A stretch of 64,000 nt of DNA, from contig NZ_NJIF01000004.1 in NCBI RefSeq assembly GCF_002209555.1, positions 496,001 to 560,000 on the forward strand, given 5' to 3'. Within the stretch, counting starts at the first letter, position 1. Each line of letters starts with the position of its first letter. Under the pieces are notes generated by a model, which saw only the letters and a list, made by a program, of their open reading frames with translations, did no database searches and was not told where the DNA came from. Of the stretch, positions 14,178 through 30,997 are shown in pieces. Made by a program: the position numbers and the translations under genes. The stretch comes from Achromobacter insolitus. Lineage in GTDB: Bacteria > Pseudomonadota > Gammaproteobacteria > Burkholderiales > Burkholderiaceae_B.

Positions 14178-15014
14178 ATGGCATACGTAACTACGAAGGA
14201 TGGAACCGAGATCTTTTATAAGGATTGGGGCCCCAAAGACGCGCAGCCTATTCATTTTCATCATGGCTGGCCGCTCAGCGCCGATGACTGGGACAACCAG
14301 ATGCTGTTCTTCCTCAAGGAAGGCTTCCGCGTCGTCGCCCACGATCGACGCGGGCATGGCCGCTCATCGCAGGTCAGCGAAGGCCACGACATGGACCACT
14401 ATGCCGCCGATGCCTCGGCGGTCGCCGAACATCTCGACCTCCGCAATGCTATCCATATCGGTCACTCGACCGGTGGCGGCCAAGTCGCCCGCTACGTCGC
14501 GCAGCACGGCCAGCCGCAAGGGCGTGTCGCCAAGGCCGTTCTCGTCAGCGCCGTGCCGCCTCTGATGGTCAAGACCGACGCCAACCCGAACGGCACGCCG
14601 CTTGAGGTGTTCGACGGATTTCGCGCCGCGCTCGCGGCGAACCGGGCACAGTTCTTCCGCGATGTACCGGCAGGCCCTTTCTACGGGTACAACCGTTCCG
14701 GCGCCCAGCCATCGCAAGGCGTGATCGAGAATTGGTGGCGTCAAGGCATGATGGGCAGCGCCAAGGCGCATTACGAAGGCATCAAAGCCTTCTCCGAAAC
14801 CGACCAGACCGAGGATTTGAAGGCGATCACCGTCCCGACCCTGGTGATGCAGGGCGATGACGATCAGATCGTTCCCTATCAATGCGCGGCCGTCATGCAA
14901 GACAAGCTTCTGCGAAACAGCACATTGATTATCTATCCTGGCTTCTCGCACGGAATGCTCACCGTGAACGCTGATGTCGTGAACGCAGACCTTCTGAAGT
15001 TCATCCGCGGATAA
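14178..15014 (+). CDS. Alpha/beta hydrolase (non-heme haloperoxidase/arylesterase type)
   Basis: 278 residues. The nucleophile elbow is GHSTGG, the acid is in MQGDDDQIVP and the catalytic His in GFSHGML. The N-terminus (DGTEIFYKDWGPKDAQP, HHGWPLSADDWDNQ) is that of the cofactor-free chloroperoxidase/arylesterase group. AAAGGAAA precedes the ATG at 14178. It stands alone on the plus strand with a GC-rich hairpin after its stop. The natural substrate is unknown; haloperoxidase activity in this family is usually a side reaction of an esterase. Confidence 0.9.
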   Translation: MAYVTTKDGTEIFYKDWGPKDAQPIHFHHGWPLSADDWDNQMLFFLKEGFRVVAHDRRGHGRSSQVSEGHDMDHYAADASAVAEHLDLRNAIHIGHSTGGGQVARYVAQHGQPQGRVAKAVLVSAVPPLMVKTDANPNGTPLEVFDGFRAALAANRAQFFRDVPAGPFYGYNRSGAQPSQGVIENWWRQGMMGSAKAHYEGIKAFSETDQTEDLKAITVPTLVMQGDDDQIVPYQCAAVMQDKLLRNSTLIIYPGFSHGMLTVNADVVNADLLKFIRG

Positions 15015-15367
15015 ACTCGGCGCGCCGGGCTCTCCGCCCGGCGCATTCCTCCGGCAGCGCCTGTACCTCTACATCACGCGCACGCCCAAAAACTCGATCG
15101 GTCGCCCGGCCTGCTCCGTGGAGATCACCTAACCTTTCAGCGCGCTGGTAAGGTCGTATACCGTGACGCTGCCCAGGTCGGCAAGGCACGGATCCGTGCC
15201 CTGGAAATGGGCCGCTTTCAAGCCGCAGCCCCGCCGGACAATTGTTGTTACACAATCCTTGTGCAAATATTGCACCTTGGTGATGTAGTGACACAATTCG
15301 CAGGGCTTGCAAACCCGTGGGCGGCAGCGGGCAACAGGCCGGCTCCCTTTCGGAGAACCCGAAGTCC
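15015..15367. other. Non-coding region upstream of the hybrid kinase operon
   Basis: 353 nt without a supportable gene. It holds the hydrolase hairpin, the perfect 16-bp palindrome GGCACGGATCCGTGCC (15185-15200), and a second palindrome GTGCAA-ATA-TTGCAC (15261-15275) in an AT-rich stretch that could be the kinase promoter or its operator. None of the GGAAATTTCC-type elements seen further downstream is present here. Confidence 0.5.
15022..15044 (+). terminator. Hairpin downstream of the alpha/beta hydrolase
   Basis: The perfect 9-bp stem GCGCCGGGC/GCCCGGCGC with a 5-nt loop lies 8 nt after the stop. There is only a short ATT tail, so its strength as a terminator is uncertain. Confidence 0.5.
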
Positions 15368-17770
15368 ATGTCGACCTATATGGAAGCGTTCCTGAGCGGC
15401 ATCGCCCTCTTGCTTTTCGCCGCCATACTGGTCTTGCTGCATGTCGCGCGGGGGGTGCGGGCCGAAGCGCGGCGCCTGCGCGCCGATGTCCAGGAGGCCC
15501 GGGCATCCCACAAGATGCAGGCGCGTCTACTGGACGCCACCCCCACGCTGATCGCCGCCTTGGATGGAATGAACCGCTATCTGAGTGTGAACCAGGCTTT
15601 CGAGGAAATGGTGGGGCTGGACCGCAGCCGGCTGATCGGAGCAAAGGCTGGATCCCTGCAAGGCGTCGCCGGGTCGCTGGGTGCCCAATTAGAAGCGTTC
15701 GCTGCCCAATGTGTCGTGGCGGACCAGGCAATCACCGAGGTCATCGAGGTGCGCGCCGCCAACGGGCGGGCCATCGAGGGCATGTTGATCGTACAGCCCT
15801 TTCACGGCGATGACGGCACTCCTCGCGGGGCCCTGGTCGCCCTGGTCGATGTCAGCGCGCGCCTTGCAGCAGAACGCGAAGCCCGCGAAATCAAAGACAC
15901 CGTGGAAGACTTGACGCAAACCCTGCCCATGGCGTTTTTTCGGATTCGGGAGGAGCCCGGCGGCCATCGCTGGGTCCCGTATCTGGTGGGGCAAACAGAG
16001 AAATTCCTGCGCCAGTCGTCTCGCGAAATCCTCGAACGGTCCAGCGGGGGAAACCTGCCCAGCGTACTGGAAGCCCACTGGCCGGCAGCCCACGCAGCGG
16101 CGGACGCATCCCGCGATAGCGGTGGACCGATACAGATCGACCTGGAAACGCATCGCGCGAACGACGACGGATGGGTAAGGATCGGCACCGCCCTGCCCCG
16201 GCGCCTGCCGGACGGTTCGGTCCTCTGGAATGGGTATCTGATGGACGTCACGCAAGAGCATCGTGATGCGGAAGCGCTCAGTCGCGCCAAGGCCGAAGCC
16301 GATGCAAACGCCCAGGCCAAGTCCCGCTTTCTTGCCGCGATGAGCCACGAAATCCGCACGCCATTGGCAACGACGCTGGGCGCGCTGGAGCTGTTGCGCG
16401 ACACCCCCATGGACGACTACCAGCGCCAACAGGTCGATCTGGCGGACAGTGCTTCCCGGCTCCTGATCGAAATTCTCGGCGATATCCTCGACTTCTCGCG
16501 CCTGGAGGACGGGCCGGTGCCGGTGGAATCGATACCGTACAGCGTGCGGGACGTCCTGGACCAGGTGACCCACATCTTCTCGGCCAAGGCGCGGGAGAAG
16601 GGTTTGACGCTGGACGTGTGCGTCGCGCCCGAGGTGGCCGCGCAGTACCAGGGAGACCCCGTACGCGTGAAGCAGATCCTCTTGAACCTGATCGGCAATG
16701 CGATCAAGTTCACCGTAAGCGGCGGGATCAATGTCACCGTGAAGGCGGCACCCAACGCCCCTGCGGCCGGCGCGTCCGTCCAGACTATCCTCGTTTCGGT
16801 GTCCGATACCGGCATCGGGATTTCAGCCGAAGCGCAGAGCCGCCTGTTCCGCCCCTTTTCGCAGGCGGATGCATCGACAGTGCGCCAATATGGAGGCAGC
16901 GGGCTGGGGCTGGCCATCTGTTCGCGCCTGAGCCGGCTGATGGGTGGGAGCATCCAGGTGCAAAGCACTGAAGGCGTCGGCAGCCGCTTCGACGTCACCT
17001 TGCCCCTGCATGTACTGCGGCTCACCCCGCCAGATTCCATATTGACGGGCAAGCGCATCCGCATAGACGTGCACCGCGCGGCGGACGACGCGGCCCTCCA
17101 GGCATATGCCCAAACACTGGGCATGCGGCCGGTCGAGCCTCCCAGTCCGTCCGATCTCCACATCGTCGAATTGCCGCAGCCGGGGCCGGCTCCGCTGCCC
17201 GCCACCCTGTATTTCGCCCCCGACGGATATTCGCCCGAAAACCTGCCGCCAGGAACGCCGCCGGCGCTCGTCGTCGCAGGCGGGCCCGTGCGATTTGGCG
17301 AACTATTGCAAGCCTGTCTTGGCGCGTTGCAGACGGAGCATCCTGTTACCAAACCCTCTGTCCCGCTACGGGAAAATGGCGCCGATCCAGAAACGAGGCG
17401 GATACTGATCGTAGAAGACCATTTGCCTTATCAGATAGTGATTCGAAACATGGTGGACAAGCTAGGATGGCCTGCGGATGTGGTCGCAGACGGCAGGCAG
17501 GCGTTGAATCAGCTGGAACGTGTGCAATATGCGTTGATGCTGACGGATTGCCATATGCCCGACATGGACGGCTTTGAACTGACCCGTCGCGTTCGCGACC
17601 ACGAAGATGCCCGCATCCGCGCCCTGCCCGTTGTCGGCTTGAGCGCCGACGTCCAGAGCGAATACGTGGAGCGCTTGCGGCAAGCTGGGCTCAATGACTT
17701 CCTGGTCAAGCCCGTCAACCTTTCCACGCTGCGCGAGTGCATAGGGAGGTGGACCAATGAATCCCGCTGA
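15368..17770 (+). CDS. Membrane-bound hybrid sensor histidine kinase (PAS-HisKA-HATPase-REC)
   Basis: About 800 residues. One N-terminal membrane helix (about 6-27) is followed directly by a PAS domain (LLDATPTLIAALDGM onwards) and a second PAS-like region. The HisKA phospho-acceptor His327 is in MSHEIRTPLATTLG. The ATPase boxes are LNLIGNAIKFT, DTGIGIS and GGSGLGLAICSRL. A C-terminal receiver has phospho-acceptor Asp727 (LTDCHMPDMDG) and Lys in LVKPVN. There is no periplasmic Venus-flytrap domain and no Hpt domain, unlike BvgS; the Hpt is encoded separately at 18489-19166. The ATG at 15368 is preferred (GGAG 12 nt upstream). It heads an apparent operon with a BvgA-like regulator. Confidence 0.92.
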   Translation: MSTYMEAFLSGIALLLFAAILVLLHVARGVRAEARRLRADVQEARASHKMQARLLDATPTLIAALDGMNRYLSVNQAFEEMVGLDRSRLIGAKAGSLQGVAGSLGAQLEAFAAQCVVADQAITEVIEVRAANGRAIEGMLIVQPFHGDDGTPRGALVALVDVSARLAAEREAREIKDTVEDLTQTLPMAFFRIREEPGGHRWVPYLVGQTEKFLRQSSREILERSSGGNLPSVLEAHWPAAHAAADASRDSGGPIQIDLETHRANDDGWVRIGTALPRRLPDGSVLWNGYLMDVTQEHRDAEALSRAKAEADANAQAKSRFLAAMSHEIRTPLATTLGALELLRDTPMDDYQRQQVDLADSASRLLIEILGDILDFSRLEDGPVPVESIPYSVRDVLDQVTHIFSAKAREKGLTLDVCVAPEVAAQYQGDPVRVKQILLNLIGNAIKFTVSGGINVTVKAAPNAPAAGASVQTILVSVSDTGIGISAEAQSRLFRPFSQADASTVRQYGGSGLGLAICSRLSRLMGGSIQVQSTEGVGSRFDVTLPLHVLRLTPPDSILTGKRIRIDVHRAADDAALQAYAQTLGMRPVEPPSPSDLHIVELPQPGPAPLPATLYFAPDGYSPENLPPGTPPALVVAGGPVRFGELLQACLGALQTEHPVTKPSVPLRENGADPETRRILIVEDHLPYQIVIRNMVDKLGWPADVVADGRQALNQLERVQYALMLTDCHMPDMDGFELTRRVRDHEDARIRALPVVGLSADVQSEYVERLRQAGLNDFLVKPVNLSTLRECIGRWTNESR

Positions 17771-17774
17771 CCCG

Positions 17775-17795
17775 GGCCGGACGATCCGGCCTTTT
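17775..17795 (+). terminator. Short intrinsic-terminator-like hairpin between kinase and response regulator genes
   Basis: GGCCGGA-CGA-TCCGGCC followed directly by TTTT sits 4 nt after the kinase stop and about 20 nt before the response regulator's ribosome site. A 7-bp stem with four Ts suggests partial termination, lowering or uncoupling expression of the downstream genes. Confidence 0.55.
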
Positions 17796-17827
17796 CGACA
17801 CCAGCCCCTTACCGAACGGAGTCGCAC

Positions 17828-18460
17828 TTGACCACTGTACTCGTCGTAGACGACCACCCTTCTTTGCGCCTCGTCTTGAAGACGCACCTGACGCAGGTGC
17901 TGGGCGTGACAGGCATACTGGAAGCCGACAATGGCCAGTCCACGATACAGACCGTCAAGGACAGCCACCCCGGCCTGGTCATCCTGGACATAGACATCCC
18001 GAAGATCAATGGACTGGACGTGATTCCGCGCATCAAATCGATCCAGCCGGACATCCGCATCCTGGTGGTGTCGGGACAGGATCAGTCCGTTTTTTCGCCT
18101 CGCGTGAAGCTTGCCGGCGCCAACGGCTATGTCAGCAAATCGCAAGAGATATCCGAGATTCTTCGCTGCGTCGAAGCCGTCCTGGCAGGCTACACCGTGT
18201 TTCCGAACACCGAGGCGCAACACACTTCACGCCAGCCTGGCGCAACGGATAACGTGGACCGCCTGAGCCGCCTGTCGGACAAGGAGATCGTCATCATGCA
18301 AATGCTGGCGCGCGGTATGTCCAACAAGGAAATCGGCGAAGCGCTTTTCATCAGCAACAAAACCGTCAGCACGCACAAGACACGCATCATGGAAAAACTG
18401 AAGGTACAAACACTGCTTGAATTGATCGACTTCGCCCGCCAGTGCGGAATTTCCCACTGA
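17828..18460 (+). CDS. BvgA-like NarL/FixJ response regulator
   Basis: 210 residues. The receiver domain has acidic pair Asp8/Asp9, phospho-acceptor Asp54 (VILDIDIPKINGLDV) and Lys104 (NGYVSKSQEI). The LuxR-type helix-turn-helix (about 145-205) contains LARGMSNKEIGEALFISNKT and VSTHKTRIMEKL. Length, domain order and phrases such as DIDIPKINGLDVI and GMSNKEI closely match BvgA/EvgA. Translation appears to start at a TTG with CGGAG 8 nt upstream; no in-frame ATG fits. It lies downstream of a hybrid kinase and upstream of an Hpt gene, so it is the likely phosphorelay output. BvgA-type sites occur in nearby promoters. Confidence 0.92.
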   Translation: MTTVLVVDDHPSLRLVLKTHLTQVLGVTGILEADNGQSTIQTVKDSHPGLVILDIDIPKINGLDVIPRIKSIQPDIRILVVSGQDQSVFSPRVKLAGANGYVSKSQEISEILRCVEAVLAGYTVFPNTEAQHTSRQPGATDNVDRLSRLSDKEIVIMQMLARGMSNKEIGEALFISNKTVSTHKTRIMEKLKVQTLLELIDFARQCGISH

Positions 18461-18488
18461 ATACCGTGGTTGTCTCAGGAAGTATGGG

Positions 18489-19166
18489 ATGAACCTCGCC
18501 CTCGTTCTCGGACCTGATCCTGCAAGGTTGCACGAATTGAGTACCCGCCTGGAAGGACTGGGCTTAGTGGTCGATACTTGCTCGGACGCGGCGGAGTTGT
18601 CCGGTTACCCTGCCTCGCCCCGCGTGGTCGTATGGGACCTGGGCTTGCCTCGGGCGTCAGCGGCTAGGCTGCCCGCAGCGGTCAGGGCCGCGCCAATACA
18701 TCTTCGCGTTTCGCCCCTGGGCAACGCCATCCCCGACATCGAATCGCACCCCGCAAGCTCCACCACCGAGTCCGACCTCCTGCAAGCCCTACTGAACGCC
18801 GGCTATTGCTTGCCGGAGGATTCCGAATGCGCGGCCATTCCCAGTGTGCTCCACGGTCTGGTTGACGGTGACTCCGCCGTGGTGGCCGAGCTGATCGACA
18901 GCCTGACCGACACCGGGCTCGCCGACCTGGCTGCCTATCGCGTGTGCTGCGCGGACCAGGACTGGACTGGCGCCGGCACGCTGGCGCACCGCATCAAGGG
19001 CACGGCGCGGCTGGCCGGGTGCGCGTCGCTGACCCAGCTATGTGAACATGTCGAGGCCGTCACCCGGAATGGCGACGGCGCGCAGGTAGAGCGGCTTAAC
19101 ACCCTGTTTGAACCTTCGCTGCAACGGCTCTGCGACCAGCTGCATCGCCTGCAGCAGGCGCGCTGA
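18489..19166 (+). CDS. Stand-alone Hpt phosphotransfer protein with vestigial receiver-like N-terminus
   Basis: 225 residues. The C-terminal half (about 115-222) is a histidine phosphotransfer domain with acceptor His167 in LAHRIKGTARLAG. The N-terminal 80 residues look like a shortened receiver (LVLGPDPARLHELSTRLEGL and VVVWDLGLP with Asp50) but lack the later alpha/beta units and the conserved lysine. It follows the BvgA-like regulator by 28 nt. The most likely role is carrying phosphate from the receivers of the two hybrid kinases, which lack their own Hpt, to the regulator. Confidence 0.85.
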   Translation: MNLALVLGPDPARLHELSTRLEGLGLVVDTCSDAAELSGYPASPRVVVWDLGLPRASAARLPAAVRAAPIHLRVSPLGNAIPDIESHPASSTTESDLLQALLNAGYCLPEDSECAAIPSVLHGLVDGDSAVVAELIDSLTDTGLADLAAYRVCCADQDWTGAGTLAHRIKGTARLAGCASLTQLCEHVEAVTRNGDGAQVERLNTLFEPSLQRLCDQLHRLQQAR

Positions 19167-19204
19167 TCTCCAGCTTGCCGCTCTGCCGCGCTTGGCTGGC
19201 AATC

Positions 19205-21067
19205 TCAAACCTCGGCGCTGACGCCTGCTCCCGCGCCGTCGTCCCGGCTATTCGGAGTCAGGCGCACAACCTCATCGATCGCGCGCCCCAACGAGCCCAA
19301 GCTCACTGGCTTGATCAGAATCTGGTCCATGCCCGCCGCCTTGGCCCGCTCGATCTCCGCCTCGTGGGCGCCTGCGGTGTAGCCCAGGATCGGCAATGTA
19401 GCGCTCGCATCGCCACGTTGCCGCAGCGTGCGAGCAAAGGCATAGCCGTCCATCACGGGCATGGCGCAGTCGCACACCACAACGTCGAAACGCTGCTCCT
19501 CCACCAGCTTGAGCGCCTCGGCACCGTTGGAGGCGCAGGCAACCCGATGCCCCAGTTTCTGCAACTGACGCTGCAACAGCAGCACATTGGAAGGCTGATC
19601 ATCCACCACCAGCACATTCAGCGCCACGCCCGCGGGTGCCGTCAGTTCGAACACTTCAGGTCGCGCAGGCTGCTCCGCAAGCGGTGGAGCAATACGCAGC
19701 GGCACGCGTGCGGTGATGCTCGTACCCATGCCAAGTTCGCTTTCTATGACAATCTGGCCGCCCATCTTCCGGACCAGCCTGTCGCATATGGAAAGTCCAA
19801 GTCCCGTCCCACGGTCCAACCTCGGCAGGGTTTCGGCGACCTGGACGAAAGGTTGCAGCAACGTGCCCAGCGCCTGGGCAGGAATGCCCACGCCGGTGTC
19901 GACGACCTTCAACGAAACCCACTGGAGGTCTTCTTCCCGCGCATCGGCCTGCACGTGCACCCGGACCACGCCATGGCTCGTGAACCGGATCGCATTCGAC
20001 ACGAAGTTATTCATGACCTGCTTGAGCCGCAAGGGGTCCACATAGTAGGCGCCTGTGCTGCCCTCTGGCATATCGACGGTCAGGACAAGGTCCAGGCCCT
20101 TACCTTCCGCGATGGGTCGGAATACGTTCACTACCTCTTCAACCAGCTCGACAAGCTCGGTGGGCCTGGGAGACAACTGGAACTTGCCAGCCTCCATCTT
20201 GGACAGGTCGAGCAGGTCGTCTATCAGGGTAAGCAGAGATTTGGATGCGTTGTAGGCCGTGCCCAACTGCGTCCGGTCCTCGCTCGGCAAGTCCGGGTGA
20301 GACAGCGTCAGTTCCAGCACGCCCATGATCGCATTCATGGGCGTGCGAATCTCATGGCTGACGGAAGCGAGAAAAGTGGTCTTGGCCCTGTCGGCTCCCT
20401 CCGCCCGGTCTTTGGCGATTGCCAATTCCTTCAGGACGCGCTGGCGGTGGGTAATGTCCATCCACCCAGCCACCACGCCAGTCACCGCGCCACGAGCATT
20501 GCGCAGGGGCTCCATCCAGTGCTGCACCGTCATTTCCCGGCCGTGCACGTGGAACTCGCGGTCCGTGCTCAATGCGATGCCCGTCGCCATGACTTCGCGG
20601 TAATCCTTTTCTATCTGAGCCAATTCCAGATCGCAGACCAACATCTGCGCAGCCCGACTGACCGAGGTATTTCTCAGCGATGCCCGCGACCGCTTCAGGA
20701 GCTTCTCATATGCGCTATTGCACGCAAGCAGGTTAAGGTCCTTGTCCCGCAGCACGATAGGCTGCGGAATGGCATCGAGCACCCCCGTCTGAAACGCCAG
20801 CAAGTCCTTCAAGCGCTCTTCGGAGCGCAGATGCTGCCGGCTCTTGCGGGCCAGCAGGATCAATGCCAGCAACGCCGCGACAACCCCCATGACACAGGCC
20901 AGGGATGCGAGCTTCGCCCACAGGTCGGCAATGGGCTCGGAGAAACCGGGAAACCCAGCCACTGCGACGCCGAATGCGGCTGTGGCGCACGACATCGTGT
21001 TGCGGCCCAATCGCAACCGTATGCTGGAAGTAGGACGACAGGAACGAACAAGTGAGGCCGGATCCAT
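19205..21067 (-). CDS. Membrane-bound hybrid sensor histidine kinase (BvgS/EvgS-like core)
   Basis: 620 residues. A hydrophobic segment (about 52-72) is followed by a PAS domain (about 90-210, VLDAIPQPIVLRDKDLNLLACN), HisKA with His238 (SVSHEIRTPMNAIMGVLEL), HATPase boxes (NNFVSNAIRFT, DTGVGIP, GTGLGLSICDRL) and a receiver with Asp533 (VCDCAMPVMDGYAF) and Lys in LIKPVSLG. The cytoplasmic part reads like BvgS, but the periplasmic domains and the C-terminal Hpt are absent. An internal ATG at 20995 is an alternative start. It converges with the Hpt gene and diverges from the EAL gene across a region with BvgA-type elements. Confidence 0.92.
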   Translation of the reverse strand: MDPASLVRSCRPTSSIRLRLGRNTMSCATAAFGVAVAGFPGFSEPIADLWAKLASLACVMGVVAALLALILLARKSRQHLRSEERLKDLLAFQTGVLDAIPQPIVLRDKDLNLLACNSAYEKLLKRSRASLRNTSVSRAAQMLVCDLELAQIEKDYREVMATGIALSTDREFHVHGREMTVQHWMEPLRNARGAVTGVVAGWMDITHRQRVLKELAIAKDRAEGADRAKTTFLASVSHEIRTPMNAIMGVLELTLSHPDLPSEDRTQLGTAYNASKSLLTLIDDLLDLSKMEAGKFQLSPRPTELVELVEEVVNVFRPIAEGKGLDLVLTVDMPEGSTGAYYVDPLRLKQVMNNFVSNAIRFTSHGVVRVHVQADAREEDLQWVSLKVVDTGVGIPAQALGTLLQPFVQVAETLPRLDRGTGLGLSICDRLVRKMGGQIVIESELGMGTSITARVPLRIAPPLAEQPARPEVFELTAPAGVALNVLVVDDQPSNVLLLQRQLQKLGHRVACASNGAEALKLVEEQRFDVVVCDCAMPVMDGYAFARTLRQRGDASATLPILGYTAGAHEAEIERAKAAGMDQILIKPVSLGSLGRAIDEVVRLTPNSRDDGAGAGVSAEV

Positions 21068-21133
21068 GACGGGACACCAGAGAATGGCTTGCGCACGGAC
21101 GCAATCTAAGGGTTCTTCAGCACCCCGGACTGT

Positions 21134-21200
21134 CGAAAATTCGGAACCTTCCGCGGAAATTTCCTACGGTCGAGGCAACTTCCAAATGTGAAATTTCCTA
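21134..21200. promoter_or_regulatory. Cluster of BvgA-type GGAAATTTCC elements, divergent kinase/EAL promoter
   Basis: Within 67 bp there are four related dyads: CGAAAATTCG (21134-21143), GGAACCTTCC (21143-21152), GGAAATTTCCTA (21155-21166) and TGAAATTTCCTA (21189-21200). The half-site TTTCCTA is the heptad described for BvgA targets in Bordetella. The cluster lies 67 bp upstream of the kinase start (minus strand) and 71 bp upstream of the EAL start (plus strand). Binding by the local BvgA-like regulator is inference. Confidence 0.6.
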
Positions 21201-21270
21201 CGCTTCGCGCGTACCGGAGTTGCTAGCCTTGCAAGCATGTTGTCTGGACCATAACCAGGAAGCTCGCGCC

Positions 21271-22128
21271 ATGAGGTGCCAGGAAAATTCGGCTCAGCTC
21301 ATTCAGTTCCATGAGCACGAAGTCGTTGAAATGCTGCGGGATCCTTCGCAGCTCCAGCTCGTGTTCCAGCCGCAAGTGAATCTGAAGACAGGCCGTATCG
21401 AGTCCGCGGAAGCGCTTGCTCGCTGGAATCATCCCGTCTGGGGCGTACTGCCCGCGGGCCGCTTCATTGGCGGGATTCTGGGCCTGGGCCTGCAAGGCCC
21501 CCTGTTCAGGCGCGTGGCGGAACTTGCGCTGGCGGCCAGTGCCGCGCTGACTCTCGCGGGCAAACCATTGCCGCTGGCCATCAATGCCTGCGCCGCGACC
21601 CTGTCGACGCAGGAAAACATCGAATTCCTGAGATCAACGGCATTGCGCAGACGCGTCGCCCCGGCGCTGGTCAAGGTCGAACTGACCGAAGATGCGCCCG
21701 TCACGGACATCAAGGCACTCAAGGCCGCAGTGAGCCGCTTGAGGCAATGCGGCTTCAAAGTCAGCATTGACGATTTCGGGGTGGGTTATGCCAATCTGGA
21801 CCTGCTTCTCGATCTGGACATAGACGAGCTGAAGCTGGATCGCGTATTCGCCGCTCAAATCGGGGACAACTCCATTGCCCGCCAGTCGGTACGCTTCGCG
21901 TTGTGCCTGGCCAAGGAAATGGGTTGGCGCGTCGTGGCGGAAGGCATTTCCACGGAAACCGAACTGCGCGCGCTATACCAGCTAGGCTGCCGCCACGGGC
22001 AGGGCTACTACCTCGGCCGCCCCATGTCCCTGGAAGCGCTCCTGACGCTTCCGCGGGATCGGCGCGGCCAACGCGGCCACCTTCCTGGCGAAAGCAACGG
22101 ATTGGACGCCGCGGCAAGTTCAGTCTGA
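21271..22128 (+). CDS. EAL-domain c-di-GMP phosphodiesterase
   Basis: 285 residues, essentially a single EAL domain. Residues needed for c-di-GMP hydrolysis appear intact: Glu47 in AEALARW, Asn105 in INACA, Glu in VELTE (about 137-140), Asp167-Asp168 in SIDDFGVGYANLDLL, Lys188 in ELKLDR, Glu224 in VAEGIS and Gln244 in GQGYYLGRPM. The ATG at 21271 has AGGA 10 nt upstream; a TTG reading from 21220 is less likely. There is no N-terminal sensor domain or membrane helix. Its position beside a Bvg-like system recalls bvgR, an EAL gene next to bvgAS. It probably lowers c-di-GMP when the system is active. Confidence 0.9.
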   Translation: MRCQENSAQLIQFHEHEVVEMLRDPSQLQLVFQPQVNLKTGRIESAEALARWNHPVWGVLPAGRFIGGILGLGLQGPLFRRVAELALAASAALTLAGKPLPLAINACAATLSTQENIEFLRSTALRRRVAPALVKVELTEDAPVTDIKALKAAVSRLRQCGFKVSIDDFGVGYANLDLLLDLDIDELKLDRVFAAQIGDNSIARQSVRFALCLAKEMGWRVVAEGISTETELRALYQLGCRHGQGYYLGRPMSLEALLTLPRDRRGQRGHLPGESNGLDAAASSV

Positions 22129-22527
22129 ACCGCGGGCTCGGTAGATGATGTTCCCCGCCATCATCGAATCTATCAACATCGACATCGCATGCCTGCTGTG
22201 ATAGGTGTATCCATCGATAATGCCATGGGCGCCCGCCTGCAGAATCAGCGGCAGGAATCGCTCCCATAAGGCAAGCGCCCTGACCGCGATTTTTGCCCCG
22301 GGAAACAAGGCCCGCACTCTCGCCGTCGCGGCCAGGCATTTGGTTGGACTGGCCAACACGTCCAGGATGACAAGCTCTGGCGCGTCAGCGTGCTTCTCCA
22401 GCTCAAAAAAGCGCAGGTCGGACGCATCCAACACCCATATCGAGAGCTCCGGATACTGGTTCAGCGTCCGCCGAAAGCAGTCGTAGGTGGACAGCCTGTC
22501 CGAGATTATCAATGCGCGCGCCATCAT
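22120..22527 (-). CDS. Orphan receiver-domain protein (degenerate)
   Basis: 135 residues consisting only of a receiver-like domain. The putative phospho-acceptor Asp56 (ELVILDVLASP) is present, but only one of the usual acidic pair is left (SD at 9-10), and the conserved Lys is replaced by Asp (HGIIDGYT near 105). No output domain follows. The ATG at 22527 has AAGGAG 8 nt upstream; the longer frame to 22686 crosses likely promoter elements. Its 3' end overlaps the EAL gene by 9 nt on the opposite strand. It might be a phosphate sink, a decoy or a protein-interaction module. Confidence 0.75.
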   Translation of the reverse strand: MMARALIISDRLSTYDCFRRTLNQYPELSIWVLDASDLRFFELEKHADAPELVILDVLASPTKCLAATARVRALFPGAKIAVRALALWERFLPLILQAGAHGIIDGYTYHSRHAMSMLIDSMMAGNIIYRARGSD

Positions 22528-22832
22528 CTGATCAGCTCCTTCCATCGCCGCCTTGGCAGACTGCCAGACACCGCATCCGGCCTCGTTGAAGTCTGCAACA
22601 ACTCGCGTCGCATCCTGCTGTGGAAATTTCCTCATGTTTTGTGGAAAGTTCTTAGTCGCCCGAGGCTTTCCCTCGCGCGTCGACACTCACGTTCGGAAAT
22701 TTCCTGGGCGACTTGCGGAATTTTCCCGTTTTCGGATTGATGCAACCCATGCATTCTTTTACGCACATGGAGACACACCGACGATGACCGGCGGCGGCTC
22801 CCCCTGCCTGCAAATCCTCGTGGCCGTGCCCG
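22528..22832. other. Intergenic region between orphan receiver and XRE-like gene
   Basis: 305 nt without a supportable gene. Apart from the four GGAAATTTCC-like elements it contains no recognisable RNA or repeat. A longer plus-strand frame here is only a shadow of the XRE-like gene in another phase. Confidence 0.5.
22622..22726. promoter_or_regulatory. Two pairs of BvgA-type elements between the receiver and XRE-like genes
   Basis: GGAAATTTCC at 22622-22631 and the weaker GGAAAGTTCTTA at 22643-22654 have centres 21 bp apart. GGAAATTTCC at 22695-22704 and GGAATTTTCC at 22717-22726 have centres exactly 22 bp apart. A spacing of two helical turns is what is known for BvgA dimers on the fha promoter. 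The group lies upstream of both the leftward receiver gene and the rightward XRE-like gene. Confidence 0.6.
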
Positions 22833-23243
22833 ATGGATGCCTCTTCCGAGACCATGATGCTATTCACGCCTGCCCGGCCGATCAGACGCGCCCAAAGTAC
22901 TTACATCCCGCCGCAGCCCACACGTCGACTCAATGTTCTGACGTCGGAGTCGCCTCACCCCTTACCCAGGCACGAGATATACCTTCCGGAGCCGGTGCAG
23001 GCCTTGATAGACACGCACCGCGTCAGCGCGATGCGCGCCTGGCGCACCCATCGCGGGCTATCCATGGCAACGACACAGGCGCGCACCAATCTGCGCCTTC
23101 CCACCTTGCTGGCATTGGACAGTGGAGAGGTGGCCTTGTGCGAATGGACCGTCGGCCCTTTGGCAAAAGCGCTGCGCGTGGGGCCAGACCTGCTGCTGAA
23201 GGCAGAAATGCTTGCGGCCGCCTATCGCCGTGAAGACGAATAG
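22833..23243 (+). CDS. Small XRE-like helix-turn-helix protein
   Basis: 136 residues in the longest ATG form; an ATG a few codons later is equally possible, since no clear ribosome site decides. Residues about 65-125 resemble an XRE helix-turn-helix: AWRTHRGLSMATTQARTNLR, then LPTLLALDSGEVALCEWTVG and PLAKALRVGPDLLLK, which lines up with the usual 'RGLSQEELA...ISRLEXG...LAKALGV' pattern. The N-terminal 60 residues are rich in Pro and Arg and carry no known domain. It sits between BvgA-type elements and the adhesin gene, so it could be a local regulator of adhesin expression. Confidence 0.55.
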   Translation: MDASSETMMLFTPARPIRRAQSTYIPPQPTRRLNVLTSESPHPLPRHEIYLPEPVQALIDTHRVSAMRAWRTHRGLSMATTQARTNLRLPTLLALDSGEVALCEWTVGPLAKALRVGPDLLLKAEMLAAAYRREDE

Positions 23244-23360
23244 CCACGCCATCTTGGAAAGCTCAGCCGCCGCCCCAAACGCCGCCCCCGCACGCCGGGC
23301 TGACGCGCCGGCAAACCTGGGCGCGTAGGTCCCACCGTCATAGTGTCACTGGGCACGTTC

Positions 23361-23394
23361 GGAATTTTCCGTATCCGCATTCGCCCATTTCCCA
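23361..23394 (+). promoter_or_regulatory. BvgA-type element pair upstream of the adhesin gene
   Basis: GGAATTTTCC (23361-23370) and the half-site TTTCCCA (23388-23394) have centres 22 bp apart, about 150 and 130 bp upstream of the adhesin start. The surrounding 23244-23518 stretch contains no gene. This repeats the arrangement at 22695-22726 and would place the adhesin under the local BvgA-like regulator. Confidence 0.5.
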
Positions 23395-23518
23395 ACCTCA
23401 GGATTCCTGGACCGCTTCATCCTTGTATCAAGGCGCGAAAGACCGTGCATTAGCGCCCGATGCAAAGACGAGAGCACGCATTTTTTATTTTGCTTGTCCA
23501 CTGTACTGAGAGTTGATC

Positions 23519-26500
23519 ATGAACAAGGTCTATAAGTGCATATTTAACGAGGCCACCGGAAAATGGGTCGTGGCGTCCGAACTGGCGAAGGGCAAGAAGA
23601 AGCGCTCGTCACGTGCACTCATCGCCATCGCGGGCGCGCTCGTCGCATCGGCAGCGTCCGCCCAAACACATTACTACGGCGTCAATGACGGCGGCACGCC
23701 GGCGGCGAACTACGCGAACGACGGCGCCACTGGCACCAACGCGTTGGCCGCAGGCATCGCCGCCACCGCATCTGGCGATGAAGACGTCGCGGTCGGCCAC
23801 GGCGCCACTGCTTCCGGTGGCAGCAGCATTGCGATTGGATCTCGGTCGTTCTCGAATAGCGGTGACCCTACCGCGTCTCCCATGGCATCTGGAGAGTTCA
23901 GCATCGCCATCGGCACGCAGGCCCGGTCATCCGGCTATGGCAGCACCGCGTTGGGATTCCAAAGCGTTGCCGAGCTCGCCTATGACGTGGCCGTAGGAAC
24001 GGGAGCGCGGGCCGTCGGTGGCCAATCTTCCGCATTTGGCGAAAGCGCGTATGCGTCCGGCATCAATTCAATTGCCTTGGGATCGGCGGCGCAAGCCACC
24101 AATGTATCCGCCGTCGCCATAGGCGACGGCTCTTTAGGATCCGGATTCTGGAGCACCGCCGTCGGACGGGGCACCAACGCCAATGGAGAAGGATCGACCG
24201 CCATCGGACTTGGTGCGCGTGCCGCCTACTATGGCACAGCCTTAGGTGCGGTAGCCGTGGCGGACAGTAACGCCACGGCCGTAGGCGAAGGCGCCCAGGC
24301 GACCGGCACTTCCTCTTCCGCAGTGGGCTACTTTTCCTCGGCGGGAGCTTACTCTGCCACCGCCGTCGGTCCCCACGCCAATGCAAGCGCCGAAGGTTCG
24401 GTGGCCATGGGCAAGGACGCCAGCGCCACCGACACATACGCCATCGCCATTGGCACCAGCGCTTCTGCCTCAGGCTACAAGTCCCTGGCGGCCGGTCCTG
24501 GAGCCAGCGTTACAGTGCCCGGCGGCGTCGCCCTGGGTAACGATTCGGTGTCGAGTACGGCCGCCGCTGCCGCGCCGTTTGTTCCGCCCAGTGCATCTGC
24601 GACTCAAGCCAGTTCCATCACTGCGACGACGAGCACAAGCGGCGCTGTTTCGGTAGGAGACTCCACGAACGGCCTGTATCGCCAGATCACCGGCGTGGCC
24701 GGGGGCACGGCCGACAGCGATGCGGTAAACGTCGCCCAGTTGAAGGGCGCTGTCTCCAACTCTCAAACGCACTACTACAGTGTGAACGATGCGGGCGTTG
24801 CCGGCGGAAACTACAACAACGATGGAGCAACCGGCATCAACGCGCTGGCCGGCGGAGTCGGCGCAACCGCGAGCGGACGGAGCGCCCTTGCAATGGGTGA
24901 GTTGTCGAAGGCCTCGAACAATGACGCAGTAGCCATCGGTCATAACGCGACTGCGGCGAGCGCCAATGCCGCCCATACCGACATGATCGCCATCGGATTG
25001 AATGCCAACGCCTCCAACGACCATGCTGTCGCCATCGGCTTTTCTTCCGTAGCGAAGAACGCGAACTCCACGGCGGTAGGCGCTAACGCCACGGCAAGCG
25101 GCGACGCAGCTTCTGCGTTCGGCCACAAGGCGACGGCAAGCGGACCCTCGAGCACGGCTTTGGGTTTGAATGCCAACGCGTCCAAGGGTAGCGCGGTAGC
25201 CTTGGGCAACGCCGCCAATGCTGCTGGCGACAATTCCACAGCAATCGGCTATCAGGCTGCGACTTCGGCGACCGGCTCGACGGCGATAGGTCAAGGGGCA
25301 AAAGCCCAGACCGGCGCATTCAACGCCATTGCCATCGGCACCGGAGCGACGACTTCCGCAGCCAACTCCCTTGCGCTGGGTAATGGCGCGGTGGCCTCGG
25401 TCAGCGACGGCATCGCGCTGGGCTCGGGCTCGCAGGCAACGACCGGCGCTTCCGTCTCGGGCTACGATCCTCGCACGGGCACAGCTTCCACCAACGCCAG
25501 CGCCGCCTGGAAGAGCACGCTGGGCGCCTTGAGCCTGGGTAACGCCGCCAGCGGCAAGACCCGGCAGATCAATGGCCTGGCCGCCGGCACGGAAGACACG
25601 GATGCCGTCAACGTCGCGCAACTGAAGGCGTCGACCGCCGACGCCGTCAAGTACGACAACAGCACGCACAACTCCGTGACGATGACGGGCGACACCTATA
25701 ACTCGGTCACCAAGACCGGCGGCACCAAGATCACCAACGTCGCTCGCGGCGTGGGCGACAGCGATGCCGTCAACATGTCGCAGCTGAACGAGACCAACAC
25801 CCAGGTCTCCAATGTCGACAACCGCGTCACCAACGTGGACAACCGCGTGACCGGCCTGGAGAACGACGCCCTGTTGTGGGACCCGACCGCCAACGGCGGC
25901 ACGGGCGCCTATAGCGCCAAACACGGCGGCACCGGTCCCAACAAGATCACCAACGTCGCCGCAGCGGAACTCAGCGACACCAGCACCGACGCCGTCAATG
26001 GCAGCCAGCTCAAGGCCACCAACGACAACGTCGCCTCCATCGATAACCGCGTCACCACCGTGGAAGGCGATGTGACGACCATCGGCAACCGTGTCGAGAA
26101 CATCTACAACACCGGCACCAAGTACTTCCACGCCAACTCCACCGGCGCCGACTCCCAGGCCATCGGCCAGGACTCGGTCGCCATCGGCATGGGCGCGGTC
26201 GCCACCCACGACGGCAGCGTCGCCGTGGGCGCGGGCTCCAATGCCTCCGGCGCCACGCTGGGCAACCAGGCCTACCTGGTGGGCGGCACCGCCACCGGTG
26301 AAGTCAACGTGGGCAACCGTCGCATCACCGGCCTGTCGGCCGGCGCCGAGGACACCGACGCCGTCAACGTCGCGCAGTTGAAGCAGGCTGCCACCGACGC
26401 GACCGCCGACGCCGTCAAGTACGACAACAGCACGCACAACACCGTGACGATGACGGGCGACACCTATAACTCGGTCACCAAGACTGGTGGCACCAAGATC

Positions 26501-29500
26501 ACCAACGTCGCTCGCGGCGTGGGCGACAGCGATGCCGTCAATATGTCGCAACTGAACGAGACCAACACCCAGGTCTCCAATGTCGACAACCGCGTCACTA
26601 CGGTAGACAACCGTGTAACCAACGTGGACAACCGCGTGACCGGCCTGGAGAACGACGCCCTGTTGTGGGACCCGGCCGCCAACGGCGGCACGGGCGCCTA
26701 TAGCGCCAAGCACGGCGGCACCGGTCCCAACAAGATCACCAACGTCGCCGCAGCGGAACTCAGCGACACCAGCACCGACGCCGTCAATGGCAGCCAGCTC
26801 AAGGCTACCAACGACAACGTCGCCTCCATCGACAATCGCGTCACCACCGTGGAAGGCGATGTGACGACCATCGGCAACCGTGTCGAGAACATCTACAACA
26901 CCGGCACCAAGTACTTCCACGCCAACTCCACCGGCGCCGACTCCCAGGCCATCGGCCAGGACTCGGTCGCCATTGGCATGGGCGCGGTCGCCACCCACGA
27001 CGGCAGCGTCGCCCTGGGCGCAGGCTCCAGCGCCTCCGGCGCCACGCTGGGCAACCAGGCCTACCTGGTGGGCGGCACCGCCACCGGTGAAGTCAACGTG
27101 GGCAACCGTCGCATCACCGGCCTGTCGGCCGGCGCCGAGGACACGGACGCCGTCAACGTCGCGCAGTTGAAGCAGGTTGCCACCGACGCGACCGCCGACG
27201 CCGTCAAGTACGACAACAGCACGCACAACACCGTGACGATGACGGGCGACACCTATAACTCGGTCACCAAGACCGGCGGCACCAAGATCACCAACGTCGC
27301 TCGCGGCGTGGGCGACAGCGACGCCGTCAACATGTCGCAGCTGAACGAGACCAACACCCAGGTCTCCAATGTCGACAACCGCGTCACCAACGTGGAAGGC
27401 GATGTGACGACCATCGGTGACCGCGTCGAGAACATCTACAACAAAGGCACCAAGTACTTCCACGCCAACTCCACCGGCGCCGACTCCCAGGCCATTGGCC
27501 AGGACTCGGTCGCCATCGGCATGGGCGCGGTCGCTACCCACGACGGCAGCGTCGCCCTGGGCGCGGGCTCCAATGCCTCCGGCGCCACGCTGGGCAACCA
27601 GGCCTATCTGGTGGGCGGCACCGCCACCGGTGAAGTCAACGTGGGCAACCGTCGCATCACCGGCCTGTCGGCCGGCGCCGAGGACACGGACGCCGTCAAC
27701 GTCGCGCAATTGAAGCAGGTTGCCACCGACGCGACCGCCGACGCCGTCAAGTACGACAACAGCACGCACAACTCCGTGACGATGACGGGCGATACCTACA
27801 ACTCGGTCACCAAGACCGGCGGCACCAAGATCACCAACGTCGCTCGCGGCGTGGGCGACAGCGATGCCGTCAACATGTCGCAGCTGAACGAGACCAATAC
27901 CCAGGTCTCCAATGTCGACAACCGCGTCACTACGGTAGACAACCGTGTAACCAACGTCGACAACCGCGTCACTGGTCTGGAGACCGATGCCCTGCAATGG
28001 GACCCGACCGCCAACGGCGGCACGGGCGCCTATAGCGCCAAGCACGGCGGCACCGGTCCCAACAAGATCACCAACGTCGCCGCAGCGGAACTCAGCGACA
28101 CCAGCACCGACGCCGTCAATGGCAGCCAATTGAAGGCCACCAATGACCAGGTCACGTCCATCGATAACCGCGTCACCACGGTGGCGGGCGATGTGACGAC
28201 CATCGGTGACCGCGTCGAGAACATCTACAACAAAGGCACCAAGTACTTCCACGCCAACTCCGCCGGCGCCGACTCCCAGGCCATCGGTCAGGACTCGGTC
28301 GCCATCGGCATGGGCGCGGTCGCCACCCATGACGGCAGCGTCGCGCTGGGCGCAGGCTCCAGCGCCTCCGGCGCCACGCTGGGCAACCAGGCCTACCTGG
28401 TGGGCGGCACCGCCACCGGTGAAGTCAACGTGGGTAACCGCCGCATCACCGGCCTGTCGGCCGGCGCCGAGGACACCGACGCCGTCAACGTCGCGCAGTT
28501 GAAGCAGGTTGCCGTCGACTCCACGGCCGACGCGGTCAAGTACGACAACAGCACGCACAACACCATCACGCTGACGGGCAACACGTACAACTCGACCACC
28601 AAGACCGGCGGCACGCGGATCACCAACGTCGCAGCAGGCGTCGATGGCGGCGATGCCGTCAACGTCGATCAACTGGAAGCAGCGAAGACCCGTTACTACA
28701 GCGTCAATGACGGTGGCGTGGTCGGTGCCAACCACGCGAACGACGGCGCCACCGGGACCAACTCGCTGGCCGCTGGCGTCGCCGCACAAGCGAGCGCCAC
28801 GGAGAGCGTCGCGATCGGCTACAACGCAAAGGCCTATTCTTCCCAAAGCGTGGCGCTTGGCGCCAACAGCATCGCCAACGCCAGCCTGATCGCCAGCGCC
28901 TACAACCCCACCGCGCTCTACACGCTGGCGGGCTTGACCCCGATCGGGGAGGTGTCGGTGGGTTCGGCCGGCAAGGAGCGCCGCATCACCAACGTCGCTG
29001 CCGGCGCTGCTGACACAGACGCGGTGAACGTCAGCCAACTGAAGTCGGCGGTCAGCGCGATCTCCAGCAACCCCTCGGGCAATGACCGCGCGGTGACCTA
29101 CGACGGTGCCGCCGGCTCCCCCAAGGACCAGGTGACACTGCAGGGCGCACAGTCGACCGATGGCGGCAAGACCGGCGGGACGACCATTACCAATGTCAAG
29201 CAAGGCGCGGTTTCCAATACCAGCACAGATGCCGTCAACGGCAGCCAGCTGTATGAAACCAACCAGCGTGTCGACAATATCGATGTGCGCGTAAGCAACG
29301 TCGAGAACAAGTTCATCGACGCATTCAGCGACCTGGACAATGGCTCGCGCTACTTCAAGGCCGACGGCACGAACACGGACGCCGACAAAGCGACCGTGCA
29401 AGCGGGCACCAACGGCGTTGCCTCCGGCTCCAATGCCGCCGTTTCCGGAAAGAATGGCGTGGCCATCGGAAATGGCGCGGCTGCCTCCGCGGAAGAGACC

Positions 29501-30091
29501 GTCGCCGTCGGAGCCAATGCCAAGGCATCGGCGTCCGGAGCAACCGCCACCGGCAGCGGCGCGCGAGCGTCCGGCAAGAGGAGCTCCGCGGTCGGACAAA
29601 ACGCAAGCGCCAGCGGCAACAACTCCGTTGCCGTGGGCGCGGGCGCCAAGGCCTCGAATGCCAACAGCGTGGCGCTGGGAGCAGATTCGGTGACGAATCG
29701 CGACAACTCGGTCTCGGTCGGCTATGCCGGCGGCGAGCGGCAAATCACGAACATGGCCGCGGGCACCGCCCCGACCGACGGCGTCAACGTGTCCCAGTTG
29801 AACGACACCAAGAACGACATCATGAACTACACGAACGGGAAGCTGCGCAATCTGCGTAACGATGCCAACGCCGGCACCGCGTCGGCCATGGCCATGGCCG
29901 CGCTGCCCCAGGCGACGCTTCCTGGCAAGGGCATGTTCGCGCTCGGCGGTGGCACTTATGGCGGCCAGAGCAGCTTGGCTGTCGGGGTATCCGGCATGTC
30001 CGAAAGCGGCAAGTGGGTACTCAAGGCGAATGCGACCACCAACACCCGGGGCAATGTCGGCGCCGCGGTCGGGGTTGGCTTCCACTGGTAA
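23519..30091 (+). CDS. Giant trimeric autotransporter adhesin (YadA-like)
   Basis: 2190 residues. The N-terminus carries the extended signal peptide region [16 protein letters not shown] followed by KGKKKRSS and an AASA cleavage region. A YadA-type head with many AIGxxAxAxG repeats follows (about 51-340). Further head modules starting with YYSVND occur near residues 417 and 1724. The stalk (about 708-1670) is four near-identical units of head-neck-coiled coil. A second head-like block precedes the C-terminal membrane anchor (about 2135-2190, [20 protein letters not shown], ending in FHW). The ATG at 23519 is used, not the TTG two codons earlier. It is a surface adhesin of the YadA/Ata type, probably expressed with the lipoprotein gene downstream. 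Confidence 0.95.
25640..28528 (+). repeat. Tandem stalk repeat in the trimeric autotransporter
   Basis: Four near-identical consecutive units begin with GACGCCGTCAAGTACGACAAC at 25640, 26408, 27197 and 27740, and a fifth partial copy begins at 28529. The unit lengths are 768, 789, 543 and 789 bp. The 21-bp difference between the first and second equals one heptad (NVDNRVT-like). The 543-bp unit lacks an 82-codon block containing the WDPTANGG and [20 protein letters not shown] segment. Every length difference is a multiple of three. Confidence 0.95.
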
Positions 30092-30157: not shown

Positions 30158-30997
30158 ATGAAGATCAACCAAACATGGGCGGCCCGTAGCCTGGCCGCGG
30201 CCGTCATCGCGCTCTTGCAGGCGTGCGCCAACACTCCCCCGGCCTCTTCCTCCGCTATCGATGGACAGGAAGCCGCGCTGCGCTTCCCTGCCCCCGAAAA
30301 AGCCTGGCCCAAGGAAGGGTCCTACCCCAACGTGGAGAATCTCCGCCTGCTTGGTCCCGGAATGACCAAGGATCAGTTATACGGTCTGCTCGGACGACCA
30401 CATTTCAATGAAGGGTTCTTCAACGTACGGGAGTGGAACTACCTGCTACAGATCCGTACCGGTCCCACGCCCCAGGATGGCGTGACCACATGCCAGTTGA
30501 AAGTCCTTTTCGATTCCAACATGAAAGCGGCCTCTTATCATTGGAAGCCCGAGAATTGCGCAGAGCGAACAGAATCAGCGCCGTTACGCGCCCATGCTTC
30601 GCCCCCGACGTTGTTGAAGCGCACGGTGCTTTCGGGCGATGTGCTGTTTGCATTCAATGGTTCCAGCCTGGCCGACATCACTCCCAAAGGACTTGAGCAG
30701 CTGCAACATCTGGCGCGCGAACTGGCCAGCCTCAAGAGCATCACACGCGTGGAGATCTCTGCCTATACGGACAGCATCGGCAGCGACAGCTACAACGTGG
30801 CGCTCTCACAAAAGCGCGCGGCTTCCATACGATCATTACTCGTCCGCGCCGGGGTCGACGCCAATATCATCCAGGCCCGCGGCATGGGTAAATCCGTCCC
30901 GCCGCAATCGCAATGCGGACCCATGTCCAAGGCGGAATTGATACGGTGCTCCGCCCCAGACCGTCGCGTGGAGGTCCAGGCCTTCGGGACGAACTGA
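30158..30997 (+). CDS. SmpA/OmlA-OmpA lipoprotein, TpgA-like partner of the adhesin
   Basis: 279 residues. A lipoprotein-type signal ends in LLQAC (Cys22-23 region); Gln at -2 is slightly unusual. Residues about 45-130 resemble the SmpA/OmlA fold (LRLLGPGMTKDQLYGLLGRPHF). Residues about 155-275 form an OmpA C-terminal peptidoglycan-binding domain (FNGSSLADITPKG, ISAYTDSIGSDSYNVALSQK, RGMGKS, DRRVEVQ). This is the composition of TpgA, a peptidoglycan-linked helper that anchors trimeric autotransporters in Acinetobacter. It starts 66 nt after the adhesin stop with no obvious terminator between, so cotranscription is likely. Confidence 0.88.
   Translation: MKINQTWAARSLAAAVIALLQACANTPPASSSAIDGQEAALRFPAPEKAWPKEGSYPNVENLRLLGPGMTKDQLYGLLGRPHFNEGFFNVREWNYLLQIRTGPTPQDGVTTCQLKVLFDSNMKAASYHWKPENCAERTESAPLRAHASPPTLLKRTVLSGDVLFAFNGSSLADITPKGLEQLQHLARELASLKSITRVEISAYTDSIGSDSYNVALSQKRAASIRSLLVRAGVDANIIQARGMGKSVPPQSQCGPMSKAELIRCSAPDRRVEVQAFGTN

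Follow-up and report, generated by a model that had tools for sequence, protein, structure and literature searches.

The 64,000-nucleotide stretch of the Achromobacter insolitus genome analysed here (the window; RefSeq assembly GCF_002209555.1, contig NZ_NJIF01000004.1, positions 496,001 to 560,000) holds a gene cluster that encodes two hybrid kinases (HK1 and HK2), a response regulator resembling BvgA and EvgA, a standalone Hpt phosphotransfer protein, an EAL-domain protein, a small receiver-like protein (REC), a small XRE-type protein and a giant trimeric autotransporter adhesin followed by a TpgA-like gene. The HK2, EAL, REC, XRE and adhesin genes are each preceded by inverted-heptad dyads. 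BvgA is a textbook virulence regulator. We propose that a Bvg-like phosphorelay very probably activates an adhesin regulon through BvgA's promoter code, with the dyads as the operators of the response regulator encoded at 17828-18460.

Exact copies of the dyad GGAAATTTCC lie at 21155, 22622 and 22695, and one-mismatch copies at 21189, 22717 and 23361. These six places, all between 21155 and 23370, are the only ones in the window at up to one mismatch, against 1.11 expected, and none of 100 shuffles held six such matches. In the genome of 6,443,829 bases the exact dyad occurs at eight places, three of them in the intergenic regions of the cluster and the other five all within predicted open reading frames (ORFs). 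The window dyads form four pairs, 21134/21155 and 22622/22643 with 21-bp spacing and 22695/22717 and 23361/23383 with 22-bp spacing. Genome-wide, 22695/22717 is the sole mismatch-free 22-bp pair and 22622/22643, with one mismatch, the best 21-bp pair; 21134/21155 (two mismatches) ties with two other places, and 23361/23383 (three mismatches), whose second member is a half-dyad, the weak GCCCATTTCC, ties with nine. When a pair was required to score at least 17 of 20 in sum with one member at 9 or more, four pairs were found in the window and none in 100 simulated 64-kb sequences (first-order Markov). The published primary BvgA site of Pfha is TAAGAAATTTCCTA; BvgA binds there as head-to-head dimers with centres 22 bp apart, the proximal one abutting the -35 (PMC7250471, in part). 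The window sites CGGAAATTTCCTA and GTGAAATTTCCTA resemble it, 11 contiguous bases being common to the dyad site and the published one. The preliminary description of this DNA had placed such dyads in three intergenic regions, and the GGAAATTTCC type is present in all three; its comparison of their spacing and heptads with those of BvgA is likewise supported by the Pfha site and dimer centres. Of the pairs it gave, 22695/22717 at 22 bp and a 21-bp pair are real, the partner of 23361 proves to be the half-dyad at 23383, and a fourth pair, 22622/22643, had gone unlisted. An Rfam scan of 15000-24000 returned no match, and none was found among plasmid records compared with 17800-23520.

The second regularity lies in the distance from dyad to promoter. 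The alignment comprised 48 promoters, nine of them Cupriavidus regulator promoters and 39 from eight Achromobacter genomes, the window supplying five of the 39; each was placed by the centre of a proximal dyad that was chosen by hand from the dyad pairs, as the gene-nearest dyad, or as the point 22 bp below a strong dyad. The pattern nAnnnT, which has a background of 3.1% per offset, occurs at +31 or +32 from this centre in 48/48; A is found at +32 in 41 promoters and T at +36 in 41, and the seven exceptions are all seven REC promoters, which carry a one-base shift. Among the window promoters alone, nAnnnT stands at +31 in four of five and at +32 for REC, and other offsets from 8 to 79 reach at most two. 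A MAFFT alignment of 33 promoters of other species, in which gaps were free, contains exactly two invariant columns, the A and the T of the hexamer. TAGATT recurs in six of the seven HK2 promoters of the aligned table. Ten promoters left out of the alignment agree, namely 9/9 Cupriavidus kinase promoters, in which the hexamer follows the strong dyad by 22 + 31 bp, and the REC promoter of genome G006 at +32. In seven fresh loci, which belong to genus g8 or to an Achromobacter clade farther removed, nAnnnT is at +31 in 6/6 distinct intergenic pairs. A second pair in locus L152 (6761/6782), with TATCTT at +31, was removed by a filter and lies outside this count; the dyad of L151 at 13852 is within a gene, and that of L154, within a predicted kinase gene, has no -10 at the usual distance.

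The -35 regions of these promoters match TTGACA no better than shuffled sequence does (mean 1.88 vs 2.30), which fits activator-dependent promoters. Placement of the proximal site matches that of the presumed fhaB promoter (L142), whose regulator we take to be classical BvgA. CAGACT, the same hexamer as in the window's REC promoter, stands there at +31 after the primary site + 44, that is, 30.5 bp below the third site, the -10 being assigned from its position. Taken together, the dyads form a promoter grammar. It is also conceivable that the regulator binds the dyads chiefly as a repressor, which might cover the -35 region. The proximal dyad does adjoin the position of a would-be -35, and single dyads like that of EAL could repress. 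We consider this highly unlikely, because with -35 regions no better than random there is unlikely to be a basal promoter worth repressing, and because the presumed fhaB promoter, a target of activation by BvgA, has the same fixed 30.5-bp phase. Activation from the dyads is the preferred reading, and Table 1 gives the predicted elements promoter by promoter.

Table 1. Genes, predicted operators and -10-like hexamers of the cluster, in window coordinates.
Feature	Position	Strand	Description
HK1	15317..17770	plus	PAS-HisKA-HATPase-REC hybrid kinase, no Hpt domain found (Pfam)
Response regulator	17828..18460	plus	REC + GerE, BvgA/EvgA-like, proposed operator-binding activator (Pfam)
Hpt	18489..19166	plus	Standalone Hpt phosphotransfer protein, AHRIKGTA around conserved His (Pfam, alignment)
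HK2	19205..21067	minus	PAS-HisKA-HATPase-REC hybrid kinase (Pfam)
HK2 -10-like	21103..21108	minus	TAGATT, 30.5 bp from dyad centre 21138.5
HK2 operator	21134..21164	minus	CGAAAATTCG (21134) + GGAAATTTCC (21155), 21 bp apart
EAL operator	21189..21198	plus	Single dyad TGAAATTTCC, centre 21193.5, no partner at 21-22 bp
EAL -10-like	21224..21229	plus	TAGCCT, 30.5 bp from dyad centre
EAL	21271..22128	plus	EAL-domain protein, presumed c-di-GMP phosphodiesterase (Pfam EAL 5e-56)
REC	22120..22527	minus	Orphan degenerate receiver, convergent with EAL gene (alignment)
REC -10-like	22590..22595	minus	CAGACT, 31.5 bp from dyad centre 22626.5
REC operator	22622..22652	minus	GGAAATTTCC (22622) + GGAAAGTTCT (22643), 21 bp apart
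XRE operator	22695..22726	plus	GGAAATTTCC + GGAATTTTCC, 22 bp apart
XRE -10-like	22752..22757	plus	CATTCT, 30.5 bp from dyad centre 22721.5
XRE	22833..23243	plus	Small XRE-type helix-turn-helix protein (weak HTH_25)
Adhesin operator	23361..23392	plus	GGAATTTTCC (23361) + weak GCCCATTTCC (23383), 22 bp apart
Adhesin -10-like	23418..23423	plus	CATCCT, 30.5 bp from dyad centre 23387.5
Adhesin	23519..30091	plus	Giant trimeric autotransporter: ESPR, YadA head + stalk repeats, YadA anchor (Pfam)
TpgA-like	30158..30997	plus	BamE + OmpA protein resembling TpgA, a trimeric-adhesin partner (Pfam, NCBIfam)

A sequence model built from 33 promoters, excluding the window genome and genome G019, ranks the adhesin, XRE and HK2 promoters as the top three of nine scored matches with an expectation value (E) of at most 10 in the window genome; seven of the nine lie in the cluster. 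One match elsewhere, C11:650859, falls within a gene, and another, C1:10786, sits at the 5' edge of an opposite-strand predicted ORF. Among the candidates scored in this genome (150 of 678 from a first look), the five cluster operators are the only convincing ones. The model was then applied across the genus, where nine of 43 genomes carry the regulator at E <= 1e-70, with 120 candidates scored per genome, stricter filters and E <= 0.5. Eight of these nine close-regulator genomes gave 3-8 matches each, the window genome's five including C1:10786; G016, the ninth genome at the regulator cut-off, gave none. Among the other 34 genomes six had a single match each, all within genes, and five of the 34 carry a 55-57% relative of the regulator just above the cut-off. 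We examined six intergenic matches in carriers that had not been used for training. Three are upstream of adhesin or fimbrial genes and three are not; the former precede a YadA-type adhesin gene (L124; G030 contig 35, separate from the regulator's contig), a FimA-chaperone-usher operon about 7.4 kb from the regulator in G021 (L125), and a fimbrial gene in Cupriavidus G047 on another contig than the regulator (L126). Of the latter, one is a 22-bp dyad pair in G006 (L127, 4564-4616, E 0.27), flanked by a TonB-dependent receptor gene and by a gene that has no Pfam match, with no -10 at the usual distance when counted by hand; another is at a Cupriavidus VgrG-like gene (L118, E 0.47), and the third has no gene start nearby (L129, G008, E 0.26). 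The matches in L128 and L123 are within genes, and that in L121 overlaps just a 71-residue ORF.

The paired promoter cassette travels with the regulator across species, and dyads and -10 are kept in three genera. Hpt and kinase genes stand beside the regulator in most relatives, G006 having neither kinase in the 18 kb examined. The adhesin is more variable. Matches to the window adhesin head place a trimeric autotransporter at the locus in the window genome, G019, G021, G030 and G015 (in the last it is ended by the contig end), and other adhesins are found elsewhere: G008 and G007 carry classical autotransporters and G006 carries a giant ESPR protein. The cluster of A. denitrificans (G008) is rearranged, yet five genes each retain a site at the usual distance. 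Genus g8 loci L151-L153 share the window's gene order and kind of operator, and their regulators are 63% identical to that of the window; in Cupriavidus the regulator is 62-66% identical in the five loci measured, and the nine loci there held no detectable relative of the window EAL, XRE or adhesin head. In strain UMC46 (G030), an unlinked second XRE-like gene and a second giant ESPR adhesin gene lie on another contig (L070, 7126-7431 and 7550-14467), and before each stands a strong dyad, followed 22 bp below by a half-dyad and, at the usual distance, by a -10.

These comparisons bear on the identity of the binding protein. Another factor, most simply the small XRE-type protein, might bind the dyads, leaving the response regulator a bystander; the XRE-like gene co-occurs with the regulator in 8/9 Achromobacter genomes, and small XRE proteins often bind dyads beside their own gene. 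The same dyads and -10 distance, however, precede kinase genes in both Cupriavidus and g8, regulator genes in Cupriavidus and fimbrial genes in g8, and in the stretches examined there tblastn detected no XRE relative. The dyad site also equals the known BvgA site, and we consider this explanation very unlikely. We continue to favour the response regulator as the protein that would recognize the dyads.

Genomes G013, G015, G026, G028 and G030 (including L141, L144 and L145) have another regulator, 43-45% identical to the window's and nearer BvgA; the three measured against BvgA are 54-57% identical to it. Loci L155-L157 have GGAAATTTCC beside the regulator gene, as one strong dyad without a qualifying partner. 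The L156 dyad adjoins a chaperone-usher fimbrial operon (Pfam), and those of L155 and L157 adjoin similarly sized genes. TACACT stands at +31 after a +22 step in 3/3, as found after five positions were tried in both directions.

Several observations weigh against assigning the dyads to the regulator as activating operators. The proximal dyads were chosen by hand after the distance had been noticed in the window, and promoters that are related do not count as independent; for each left-out promoter, five positions and two offsets were tried, and most of the fresh-locus pairs had already been viewed before the formal 6/6 count. The sequence model includes the -10, hence its matches give no test of the -10 rule, and six of the eight scoring genomes fed it, the held-out ones being the window genome and G019. 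Its E-values in the window genome are modest (best 0.002), weak copies may have been missed among the candidates left unscored, and REC (E 0.64, sixth) ranks below C1:10786 (E 0.28), as does EAL (E 1.8, eighth), which also falls below C11:650859 (E 0.86). The HK1, regulator and Hpt genes (15317-19166) have no upstream dyad operator; in Achromobacter the regulator's own operon lacks one. The recognition helix of the window regulator recurs nearly unchanged in the G016-type clade (L064, L136-L140), whose regulators share 54-57% identity with it; the 18 kb around the G016 gene hold one weak pair with no -10 at distance, and the 1.5-kb flanks of its kin hold only single dyads, in 4/5. This clade shows that some relatives have not retained the code. 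Binding and activation by the regulator are themselves steps that we infer.

Single dyads are also common. With up to one mismatch allowed, GGAAWTTTCC has 324 forward matches in the genome vs 52 for a reversed control, pairs with at most three mismatches number 12 vs 10 and 24 vs 23 in that control, and exact-dyad counts per genome average 7.8 in nine regulator carriers and 5.6 in the other 34, with wide overlap. In the whole-genome scan for dyads and 22-bp pairs that the preliminary description had recommended, near-perfect pairs stand out, one-mismatch dyads are common and loose pairs are not enriched. Loose pairs (up to three mismatches) were dropped as a signal since they barely exceed the reversed control, near-perfect pairs alone being informative, and the exact-dyad count was dropped as a carrier test since it did not separate carriers from non-carriers. 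The abundance of one-mismatch dyads and the overlapping counts are what would be expected if the dyads were chance AT-rich palindromes or a local compositional effect. Against this stand the four pairs observed vs 0 in 100 simulations, the conservation of dyads and -10 over three genera and the rank of the window promoters in the genome scan, and we regard chance as extremely improbable. The signal is carried by near-perfect intergenic dyads that come in pairs and keep a constant distance to the -10.

The regulator itself has the two-domain build of BvgA, REC plus LuxR-type (GerE) (Pfam), and its operators are inverted heptads like TAAGAAATTTCCTA, with two pairs at 22 bp and two at 21 bp. Its closest solved structure is EvgA and its closest named relative is a regulator of Achromobacter pulmonis (94% identical). 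Compared with the regulator taken for classical BvgA it is 42% identical and outside the BvgA clade; it groups with Cupriavidus and g8 sequences in a separate 23-row clade (100/100), although the program warns of long branches where this clade joins the BvgA group. The protein that had been called BvgA-like is indeed so, yet by identity and tree it is no BvgA orthologue. Linking the motif to this gene product, as had been suggested, gains support from the cassette that accompanies the regulator across species, the next best relative within the same genome being only 33% identical (E <= 1e-10). The idea of a self-contained regulon holds insofar as the scored candidates (150 of 678) include no convincing intergenic copy elsewhere; it must be amended for the phosphorelay, in which one kinase alone (19205-21067) has an operator. 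The supposed orphan receiver is receiver-like, without a Pfam match; its phospho-acceptor Asp is conserved, but the usual Lys is absent in nine rows from eight genomes.

Some features of the neighbouring products deserve mention. The N-terminus of the Hpt protein resembles a degenerate receiver by eye. The REC gene overlaps the EAL gene by 9 bases, and the pair holds both domain types that are joined in REC-EAL proteins like PvrR, to which the EAL protein gives its best, though sub-threshold, NCBIfam match. RocR of Pseudomonas aeruginosa likewise joins receiver and EAL domain in one chain; these are separate genes in the window. An AlphaFold model of the XRE-like protein (nine sequences) has a mean predicted local distance difference test (pLDDT) score of 79.5, exceeding 90 over the helical domain, residues 51-130, and a structure search returned XRE-type regulators best (probability 1.00; best E 0.006, none with E <0.001). 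The TpgA-like protein scores 170.5 bits, under the NCBIfam cut-off of 350, and its gene probably belongs to the adhesin operon.

The operators, their pairing, the fixed -10 distance, their conservation and their co-occurrence with the regulator are observed features of the DNA, and they suggest a mechanism. Judging from the domains alone, phosphate would flow from the REC domains of the two hybrid kinases to the standalone Hpt protein and on to the regulator. Phosphorylated dimers of the regulator, which is of the NarL type, are expected to bind the TAGGAAA/TTTCCTA-type dyads, and a second dimer 21-22 bp away would occupy the same face of the helix. The proximal dimer, 30.5 bp upstream of the -10 (31.5 bp for the REC gene), could then replace the -35 element and recruit RNA polymerase. 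Five transcripts would be switched on in this way, those of HK2, the EAL protein, the degenerate receiver, the XRE-type regulator, and the giant adhesin with its TpgA-like partner. Activation of HK2 would constitute positive feedback, and breakdown of cyclic di-GMP (c-di-GMP) by the EAL protein may act as a counterweight to adhesin production.

What is new here is the DNA code and promoter geometry that appear common to both Bvg branches, a code that points to adhesins; the novelty thus lies in the variant and its regulon. To our knowledge, the ancestral BvgA regulon is not settled. A regulator with 42% shared residues appears to use the same DNA word, spacing and promoter distance, and its well-supported predicted targets are adhesins and signalling genes, which together yield a concrete hypothesis for the ancestral Bvg regulon and suggest that the BvgA-type switch began as a general control for stickiness. 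A broader view, to which we give an even chance of being right, is that the cassette (dyad, 21-22 bp, dyad, 30.5 bp, -10) predates Bordetella virulence as a transferable "adhesin socket". One regulator lineage would have kept its code unchanged as unrelated adhesins (trimeric autotransporters, classical autotransporters, chaperone-usher fimbriae, filamentous haemagglutinin) were exchanged behind it, linked or unlinked, and classical BvgA would be one heir of a switch for adhesion and c-di-GMP to which toxin genes were added later. Practically, the dyad pair with a -10 at 30.5 bp offers a simple rule for finding adhesin genes under such control. Achromobacter species include opportunists of the cystic fibrosis lung, and candidate surface-adhesion switches can now be named in this genus.

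With the classical BvgAS system of Bordetella the cluster shares the operator sequence, the head-to-head dyads, the 22-bp repeat, the proximal site at the -35 and adhesin targets (PMC7250471, PMC7253368 and PMC2225982, each in part). It also has in common with the presumed fhaB promoter the 30.5-bp distance between nAnnnT and the proximal site. It differs in that the predicted regulon is local to the cluster in its genome, in that three promoters have two near-consensus sites whereas Pfha has one plus two weak ones, and in that two Hpt-less hybrid kinases and a separate Hpt gene take the place of a BvgS that unites periplasmic domains, PAS, kinase, REC and Hpt in a single chain.

The nearer counterpart is the bvg locus of Bordetella petrii (Bpet4469-4472), in which kinase, regulator, Hpt and kinase genes are arranged beside a fimbrial cluster (Bpet4464-4468), and from which type of split locus BvgAS has been proposed to have originated by streamlining (PMC2572626). 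B. petrii BvgA is 42-44% identical to other Bordetella BvgA and nearer Cupriavidus (PMC5045587, in part). The window cluster likewise combines a standalone Hpt protein and a BvgA-like regulator with two hybrid kinases that lack a large periplasmic domain, and its regulator falls in the same clade as those of the g8 loci, genus g8 being presumably the B. petrii group. The difference lies in what is adjacent: chaperone-usher fimbriae there, a trimeric autotransporter with EAL, receiver and XRE genes in the window. By these likenesses the window regulator belongs to a B. petrii-type split Bvg locus, a locus type already in print. The section of PMC2572626 on the bvg locus names no B. petrii operator or promoter geometry, and the open-access literature, beyond which lie most subscription papers, yielded no description of this operator or regulon in Achromobacter or B. 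petrii.

Two further systems invite comparison. In P. aeruginosa Roc1/Roc2, too, two sensors converge on one regulator of fimbrial (cup) genes (PMC3083521, in part), a likeness of architecture. The BvgA-like system of Cupriavidus (PMC2864759, in part) has an Hpt gene beside the regulator and the same operator and -10 distance at its regulator and kinase promoters, and it differs from the window in that there the regulator gene itself has an operator.

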